The position numbers and the translations under genes were made by a program. From the NCBI GenBank assembly GCA_008923315.1, contig WBSF01000001.1, positions 124,001-188,000 on the forward strand: 64,000 bases of DNA, read 5' to 3'. Source of the DNA: Betaproteobacteria bacterium SCN1. GTDB lineage: Bacteria; Pseudomonadota; Gammaproteobacteria; Burkholderiales; Thiobacillaceae. Within the stretch, counting starts at the first letter, position 1. Every line of letters starts with the position of its first letter. The notes under the pieces are model-generated. The model saw only the letters and a program-made list of their open reading frames with translations, was not told the origin of the DNA and did not search any database. Shown one piece after another: positions 30,175 to 31,522 of this stretch.

Positions 30175-30405
30175 TCAGTCGTCGCGCGGTGTGGCAGCGC
30201 GCCGCGTAGCGTCCAGGTCGACCAGGCTGCAGCTGGTTTTCCGGGTGTCCAGACAGTCCGGCGTGCCGGGCAGATGCTCGAACGCGCAGATGCGCGTCTG
30301 TAGCAATGCCCAGTCCTGCGGCGGATAGGCGTCCGACGGCAGGTTGGGCGGGTGGTAGACGCAGCCGGTGCAATATGTCTCGATGGCGGATTCGGGTGGC
30401 GACAT
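30175..30405 (-). CDS. Small cysteine-rich protein of unknown function
   Basis: 76 residues from the ATG giving MSPPESAIET. Cysteines at 12, 15, 40, 51 and 59, including a CxxC in YCTGCVYHPP, suggest a metal or Fe-S site or disulfides, but no family is recognised. Third-position GC is as high as in neighbouring genes, which supports coding. It begins 18 bases after the TetR gene stop on the same strand, so it may be regulated by the palindrome upstream of that gene. A longer start at 30459 inside the TetR gene is possible. Confidence 0.62.
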   Translation of the reverse strand: MSPPESAIETYCTGCVYHPPNLPSDAYPPQDWALLQTRICAFEHLPGTPDCLDTRKTSCSLVDLDATRRAATPRDD

Positions 30406-30422
30406 GGCGGGTGCGGGCAGGT

Positions 30423-31010
30423 TCAGGACGTGGCCACCGCGCGCCAGGCGCAGGTCCAAGTATCGTCCAGGTAATCCGGCAGGGGGCGGGGCAGCAGTGC
30501 GTCAAGACGCGCTGTGATCATCCGGAGCGGGCCGCCGAAGAGGCAGGTCGAAGCGATCAGCGGATCCATCCGGCGGATTTCGCCGCTTGCCATGCCGCGG
30601 CGCACCATTTCGCGCATCATCGCGAAAGGGCGCGAAGAGCAGACCGGCGGTTCGTCGGGCAGGAATTCACGATGCCGGGCATACAGCATGAAATTCATCA
30701 CGGGCGGAGCGGACTCGGTCAGATCGAACAACTCGGCGACGACCGCGCGCGCCTGATCGTGACAGGAACCGTGCTGACGTTCGAGCGTGCCGATCCGTTG
30801 CGCCATGTGGGCGGTCAGTGCCGAATAGAGCGCGCGCGCCAGACCGGCCTTGTCGCCGAAATGGTGATAGATCGAACCGATGCTGACATGCGCTTTGCGC
30901 CCGATGTCATGCACGGAGGTGTTGAAATATCCCTTTTCGGTGAACAGGGCGAGCGCCGCGTCCAGGACCAGATCCCGGGTGACTTCGCGTTGCGGTGAGA
31001 TCGTTGTCAC
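30423..31010 (-). CDS. TetR/AcrR-family transcriptional regulator
   Basis: 195 residues from a GTG. The helix-turn-helix is ALALFTEKGYFNTSVHDIGRKAHVSIGSIYHHFGDKAGL. The C-terminal ligand domain has no family-specific match that I can name. The GTG is the only reasonable start, and no Shine-Dalgarno precedes it. Immediately upstream, and including the first two bases of the start codon, is a 44-bp perfect palindrome with the core GAACGAACGTTCGTTC, a typical TetR-type operator. This suggests tight autorepression. The next gene downstream is the Cys-rich 76-residue protein. Confidence 0.92.
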   Translation of the reverse strand: MTTISPQREVTRDLVLDAALALFTEKGYFNTSVHDIGRKAHVSIGSIYHHFGDKAGLARALYSALTAHMAQRIGTLERQHGSCHDQARAVVAELFDLTESAPPVMNFMLYARHREFLPDEPPVCSSRPFAMMREMVRRGMASGEIRRMDPLIASTCLFGGPLRMITARLDALLPRPLPDYLDDTWTCAWRAVATS

Positions 31011-31052
31011 GGCATCAGACTAGAACGAACGTTCGTTCTAGTCTGATGCCGT
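31009..31052. promoter_or_regulatory. 44-bp perfect palindrome, candidate TetR operator
   Basis: The 22 bases left of 31030/31031 are the exact reverse complement of the 22 to the right, with no spacer. The inner 16 bases are GAACGAAC/GTTCGTTC, as found in many TetR operators, but symmetry continues 14 bases further on each side. A TTGACT at 31068-31063 (minus strand) could be the -35 of the promoter it covers. The element touches the GTG start codon of the TetR gene. Confidence 0.8.
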
Positions 31053-31085
31053 CTGCCCCGGCAGTCAAGCGCGAACGGGAAAACG

Positions 31086-31118
31086 CCAAAAAGAAAACGC
31101 CCGCGCGGGGCGGGCGTT
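31086..31118 (-). terminator. Intrinsic terminator after rplS
   Basis: Positions 31096-31104 and 31110-31118 form a perfect 9-bp stem (AACGCCCGC/GCGGGCGTT) with a 5-base loop, followed on the minus strand by TTCTTTTT. It ends the rpsP-rimM-trmD-rplS operon 21 bases after the rplS stop and separates it from the TetR gene. Confidence 0.88.
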
Positions 31119-31138
31119 CGGGAGGGCGCCGGTGCGGT

Positions 31139-31522
31139 TTATTCGGCAGCTGCGGCGGCACGTTTGCGTGCAGGCAGTTTTTCCTTGATGCGCGCGGATT
31201 TTCCGGAGCGTTCGCGCAGGTAGTAGAGCTTGGCGCGGCGCACGTCGCCACGGCGCTTCACTTCAATGCTGGCGACCAGCGGCGAGTAAGTCTGGAAAGT
31301 CCGTTCGACGCCTTCGCCGGCAGAGATCTTGCGCACCGTGAAGCCGGAGTTGAGGCCGCGGTTGCGCTTGGCGATGACCACGCCCTCGTAGGCCTGCAGA
31401 CGCTCGCGGTTGCCTTCCTTCACTTTTACCTGGACGACGACGGTGTCGCCGGGGGCGAAATCGGGGATGGTCTTGCCCAGGCGGGCGATTTCTTCCTGTT
31501 CGAGTTGCTCGATGATGTTCAT
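31139..31522 (-). CDS. rplS: 50S ribosomal protein L19
   Basis: 127 residues, basic; sits at the 30S-50S interface. Family blocks [46 protein letters not shown] and [12 protein letters not shown] are complete. The C-terminus carries a short Lys/Ala-rich extension. Last gene of the rpsP-rimM-trmD-rplS operon, with a clear intrinsic terminator behind it. Confidence 0.98.

Follow-up and report, generated by a model that had tools for sequence, protein, structure and literature searches.

The 64,000-nucleotide stretch analysed here (the window) carries, on its minus strand, a TetR-family gene whose start codon is joined to a long inverted repeat. The gene is preceded by what we take, from the translations, to be rpsP-rimM-trmD-rplS, and it is followed by a gene for a small Cys-rich protein and then by an O6-alkylguanine methyltransferase-like gene. 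The features of the region are:

31139–31522, minus strand: rplS (ribosomal protein L19), upstream neighbour, recognised from its translation
31095–31119, minus strand: terminator-like hairpin after rplS, between rplS and tetR
31063–31068, minus strand: predicted -35 element, TTGACT; TTGACN at the same place in relatives
31041–31052, minus strand: left outer arm of the palindrome, ACGGCATCAGAC; contains most of the predicted -10 along with some of the promoter spacer; unconserved
31040–31045, minus strand: predicted -10 element, CAGACT, a weak match; TAAATT, TAGATT, TAGACT or GAGACT in relatives
31021–31040, unstranded: core operator, 20 bp, TAGAACGAACGTTCGTTCTA; conserved upstream of TetR orthologues
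31031–31035, minus strand: predicted transcription start region (~31033), ~7 nt past the -10 and within the operator
31009–31020, minus strand: right outer arm, GTCTGATGCCGT; covers the leader and the first two GTG bases; unconserved
30423–31010, minus strand: TetR-family repressor, 195 aa, GTG start; assigned by Pfam, AlphaFold2 and alignments
30175–30459, minus strand: small Cys-rich protein gene, a likely member of the same operon, with an uncertain start codon

The protein encoded by tetR is a TetR-family regulator, as it combines a Pfam TetR_N domain (E = 1.9e-16, 60 bits, cut-off 24) with an essentially helical AlphaFold2 model (pLDDT 91.7), whose top PDB hits are transcriptional regulators, either of the TetR family or unnamed. 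The nearest orthologues, from Thiobacillus, are 73% identical, and no closer relative was found among the genome contigs, the genus, the order or the class. The GTG start of the window gene aligns with an ATG in these nearest relatives.

Direct comparison of the two arms confirmed the palindrome described in the initial annotation: positions 31009–31030 and 31031–31052 form arms of 22 nt each that are 100% complementary with a spacer of 0, giving 44 bp in total. The reported reach of the symmetry into the TetR gene was likewise borne out, the repeat taking in 31010–31009, the leading two bases of the gene's GTG codon (31010–31008, minus strand). Palindrome statistics were computed on the 64-kb window, where arm lengths of 10, 9 and 8 nt come next among the perfect palindromes with zero spacer and where arms seldom exceed 9 nt after composition shuffling. 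With an arm of 22 nt against a next longest of 10 nt, the palindrome is real and cannot be due to chance. A two-codon frame (ATG CCG TGA, 31015–31007, minus strand) begins at an ATG within the right arm, and its TGA overlaps the GTG start; this may be a case of translational coupling to the TetR GTG or a chance occurrence.

The core of the palindrome (31021–31040) is made up of the half-sites GAAC GAAC GTTC GTTC. Orthologues of the window TetR were collected from the genome contigs and then from the genus, order and class, and 54 non-redundant loci carry an operator upstream of the gene, either in the 20-bp form found in the window or in a 16-bp form, TAGAAC-N4-GTTCTA, both with minor variants. 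The site lies directly upstream in most orthologues, from sulfur-oxidising and other proteobacteria, and more distant TetR relatives mostly have no recognisable operator site upstream. In the 56 genomes searched as the same genus, sites with 0–1 mismatch to the core occur once per genome and every one is at the TetR gene, indicating that the core behaves like a local self-operator. The genome of the strain itself has a single site at up to two mismatches, at tetR, on which ground a regulon of dispersed operators was rejected; a looser 16-bp pattern gave partial matches only in this genome, fewer than the backward control. A literature search with the operator letters returned nothing relevant. 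The self-operator proposed within the palindrome is thus supported by conservation upstream of the 54 orthologues, and the window TetR probably binds this palindromic site and acts there as a repressor. The proposed extent needs correction, as the inner 16 bp (31023–31038) are part of the 20-bp conserved core. The three flank pairs next to the core are also enriched, matching in 59% of comparisons within a locus versus 39% across loci, so the operator may slightly exceed 20 bp; the functional site is perhaps 20 bp and at most ~26 bp, that is, the core with possibly about 3 bp on each side.

Two further arrangements were seen during these searches. A related 20-bp site, TAGATTGAACGTTCATTCTA, is present at G002:C1:1509674-1509693 and in about 10 further same-genus genomes, in several of them near another TetR-like match, which suggests that another repressor uses an operator built in the same way. 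At one orthologue locus (L039), two overlapping tandem 16-bp operators, TAGAACTGATGTTCTAGAATTCACATTCTA, lie upstream of the TetR gene.

In the GAAC-GAAC-GTTC-GTTC arrangement, two N4-spaced sites overlap with a shift of 4 bp, and with its half-sites doubled in this way the core could accommodate either one dimer or two. TetR-family proteins whose structures were solved as single dimers use 15–17 bp, and those binding as pairs of dimers use 22–32 bp, a pair of CprB dimers occupying 22 bp (PMC4150764). By comparison with these lengths, operators of the 16-bp class may hold one dimer and those of the 20-bp class two; at least six changes between the classes are needed on the tree. Two dimers would then fit on the core and its near flank, with no need for the outer arms.

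To describe the symmetry outside the core, the left flank of each locus was set against the right flank of the same locus and, as a control, against those of every other locus. Own-flank symmetry past the core is 0–3 bp in 50 of the 54 loci, and four loci carry long extensions of 12, 8, 8 and 7 bp (the window, L090, L136 and L139, respectively). Across loci, all 2,862 flank pairs stay at 5 bp or below, so that extensions of at least 7 bp occur in 4/54 self pairs versus 0/2,862 cross pairs, and four long extensions were obtained in 0 of 20,000 permutations. When the four extended loci are set aside, outer pairs 4–12 match in 20–28% of cases compared with 26% in the cross-locus controls, which is about chance. 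The letters of the four extensions are unrelated and share no common sequence, and on the tree the window and L090 each carry theirs on a terminal branch whose sisters lack an extension. The initial annotation had asked whether compensatory changes keep the outer arms paired in relatives, and had named free drift of the arms around a conserved core as the outcome that would refute its reading. Such drift is what the loci show, and four of the 54 in addition have perfect extensions that are independent of one another. A sequence-specific site would retain its letters and RNA pairing would persist in sisters, and as neither is seen both are disfavoured. A pattern that is bimodal and independent of the letters is instead better accounted for by template-switch (quasipalindrome) copying than by a second site for protein. 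In E. coli, template switching improves the symmetry of imperfect inverted repeats (PMC7202029), and such events have been inferred to create stems in a single step (PMC8794818). The marks of a quasipalindrome product, namely a long perfect extension, letters that differ between events and sisters that lack it, are found in the window and L090. In L090 the -35/-10 spacing is 18 nt compared with 17 nt in its sisters, which suggests that its left flank was rewritten by copying, and in the window there is the possibility that the copying event also changed the ATG start to GTG. The outer symmetry is strain-specific and most likely a product of template switching, rather than something kept for a function.

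The proposal that the outer arms form part of the operator, with the whole 44 bp acting as one long site for two TetR dimers side by side, draws on the perfect symmetry over the full length and on the tandem operators of L039, which place neighbouring sites within this family. The outer arms are, however, unconserved and contain no GAAC/GTTC half-site letters in the window, the other long extensions carry different letters, and a CprB dimer pair needs just 22 bp (PMC4150764); the arms consequently fail as room for a second dimer, and we regard the 44-bp operator as improbable. Selection that maintains the long perfect palindrome at the promoter for its DNA structure (a cruciform) would accommodate letter-independent perfect extensions in 4/54 loci as well as a mutational cause does, and an excess of long extensions could likewise result if symmetry were selected for in a few lineages. 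This structural explanation is nevertheless quite improbable given that 50/54 loci, close sisters of L090 among them, have no long palindrome.

The promoter of tetR is predicted to overlap the operator, with transcription starting within it at ~31033. A TTGACN element followed after 17–18 nt by a -10 touching the core is seen in 17 class-A rows among those listed, window included, and this layout is found in Thiobacillus and other class-A loci. As the -10 of the window is weak and a strict consensus promoter scan of the window reported no promoter at tetR, the case for this promoter rests on conservation. The absence of a ribosome-binding site noted in the initial annotation was confirmed, with no Shine-Dalgarno-like motif in the 20 nt after the core; this absence is common in the orthologue family, and the window tetR would have a leader of ~23 nt that is devoid of a Shine-Dalgarno sequence. 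In 17 class-B relatives (L019, L025, L127, L129 and 13 further loci) the operator occupies the -35/-10 spacer and the start codon lies 5–7 nt past the -10, predicting a leaderless mRNA, and in the two 16-bp class-B loci four extra bases preserve the 17-nt spacing.

These transcript predictions bear on the suggestion that translation is controlled by pairing of the arms in the mRNA, with the GTG masked by the resulting hairpin. As RNA, the complete palindrome reaches -42.4 kcal/mol (z -8.2) and the missing ribosome-binding site also speaks for such control, but the transcript predicted to start at 31033 shows nothing unusual in its folding (z +1.2), and since it would hold only ~3 nt of the left arm the proposed hairpin could not form in it. 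The terminator-like hairpin opposes read-through from rplS as a source of longer transcripts, and the pairing is not kept in relatives. With outer pairs at chance in 50/54 loci and the left arm upstream of the predicted start, the RNA hairpin was rejected, its probability being very low. Of the dual action at the DNA and RNA levels that had been envisaged, the DNA part is supported as a probable TetR operator and the RNA part is not supported, transcription from the conserved promoter being predicted to start inside this operator. That the palindrome is a misassembly is the least probable explanation, since although palindromes can misassemble and the analysis covered one assembly of the strain, the repeat lies inside a 384-kb contig with gene order as in relatives and a comparable 36-bp palindrome occurs in another genome (L014/L090).

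The genes downstream of tetR point to sulfur metabolism. At least one sulfur-linked gene is present downstream in at least 46 of the 54 operator-bearing loci, including DsrE-like genes in at least 27, TusA genes in at least 27 and another DsrE-like protein, whose start resembles a signal peptide, in at least 18, all of these counts being lower bounds because loci with short fetched flanks may conceal further sulfur-linked genes. The small Cys-rich protein of the window (CxGCVYxPPNLPxxAY...TRKTSCSLVDL) has no Pfam or NCBIfam match, and tblastn placed relatives of it, which are counted among the sulfur-linked genes, downstream in at least 34 of the 54 loci. This protein recurs beside operator-bearing TetR and DsrE/TusA genes. 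Within the repressors themselves, Cys124 is present in 54/54 and Cys187 in 44/54. A conserved cysteine and a sulfur-gene neighbourhood, the two traits looked for in a sulfane-sulfur-sensing repressor, are thus both found, which suggests that TetR is a sulfur-responsive repressor; a persulfide-type inducer is a reasonable hypothesis.

Taken together, we consider it likely, on the comparative sequence evidence, that tetR is autoregulated through a core operator over its promoter, with outer arms that arose by template switching. The core operator would lie just downstream of the -10 and across the transcription start, where bound repressor, as one or two dimers on the doubled half-sites, would block RNA polymerase at the tetR promoter and probably shut off the downstream sulfur-linked gene as well. 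Stalling of replication at the core palindrome, with one flank copied into the other, would have added the outer 9–12 bp per side. Release of the repressor by reactive sulfur acting at Cys124 is a plausible last step. The object is then probably an autoregulatory TetR operator of a known kind with strain-specific outer symmetry of mutational origin, and it illustrates how mutation can turn an ordinary self-operator into a conspicuous palindrome of seemingly 'dual DNA/RNA' action. The series of 54 loci provides a natural test of whether perfect-core operators attract template-switch mutations and, within a single orthologous family, of one-dimer versus two-dimer binding at 16-bp and 20-bp sites. 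More tentatively, the loci may represent a new TetR repressor family that senses reactive sulfur through Cys124 and Cys187, controls operons of DsrE, TusA and Cys-rich sulfur-trafficking proteins from interchangeable 16-bp and 20-bp self-operators, and has cores that are recurrent template-switch hot spots rewriting promoter and start codon; we hold this to be a possibility with the odds against it.

The outer arms resemble known quasipalindrome template-switch mutations, in which one flank is copied into the other and the repeat is perfected whatever its letters (PMC7202029, PMC8794818), with the difference that here the copying is proposed from a comparison of loci. For the core, the closest parallels are QacR-IR1 and CprB, which are likewise inverted-repeat systems, that of QacR overlapping its promoter, and are bound by dimer pairs (PMC3022030, PMC4150764); the 20-bp core of the window can be read similarly as two overlapping sites. 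The family of the window TetR differs from QacR and CprB in also having 16-bp operators that resemble single-dimer sites. The sulfur-responsive repressors found in the literature are of the ArsR type (PMC12423496) and the MarR type (PMC11211675), the ArsR-type SoxR/sHdrR governing sulfur-oxidation and sulfur-transfer genes (PMC12423496). Like the window TetR, these repressors have conserved cysteines (PMC12423496, PMC11211675). The window TetR belongs to another protein family and, as a sulfur sensor of the TetR type, would be a candidate for sulfur-oxidising bacteria. AcuR of Rhodobacter sphaeroides has been demonstrated to repress its own leaderless acuR-acuI-dddL operon from an operator over the promoter (PMC3017554). 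The two systems have in common a TetR-family first gene, the lack of a Shine-Dalgarno sequence and repression of the own operon, as we infer for the window (PMC3017554). The window protein scored 32.4 bits against the NCBIfam AcuR equivalog model (cut-off 247), and orthology with AcuR was rejected on this basis. The AcuR operator is an inverted repeat, TAATAGAC-N6-GTCTATTA, that overlaps the promoter (PMC3017554), and the window operator has different letters. In contrast to the leaderless acuR with its acuI and dddL genes, the window tetR probably has a short leader and stands next to sulfur-linked genes.
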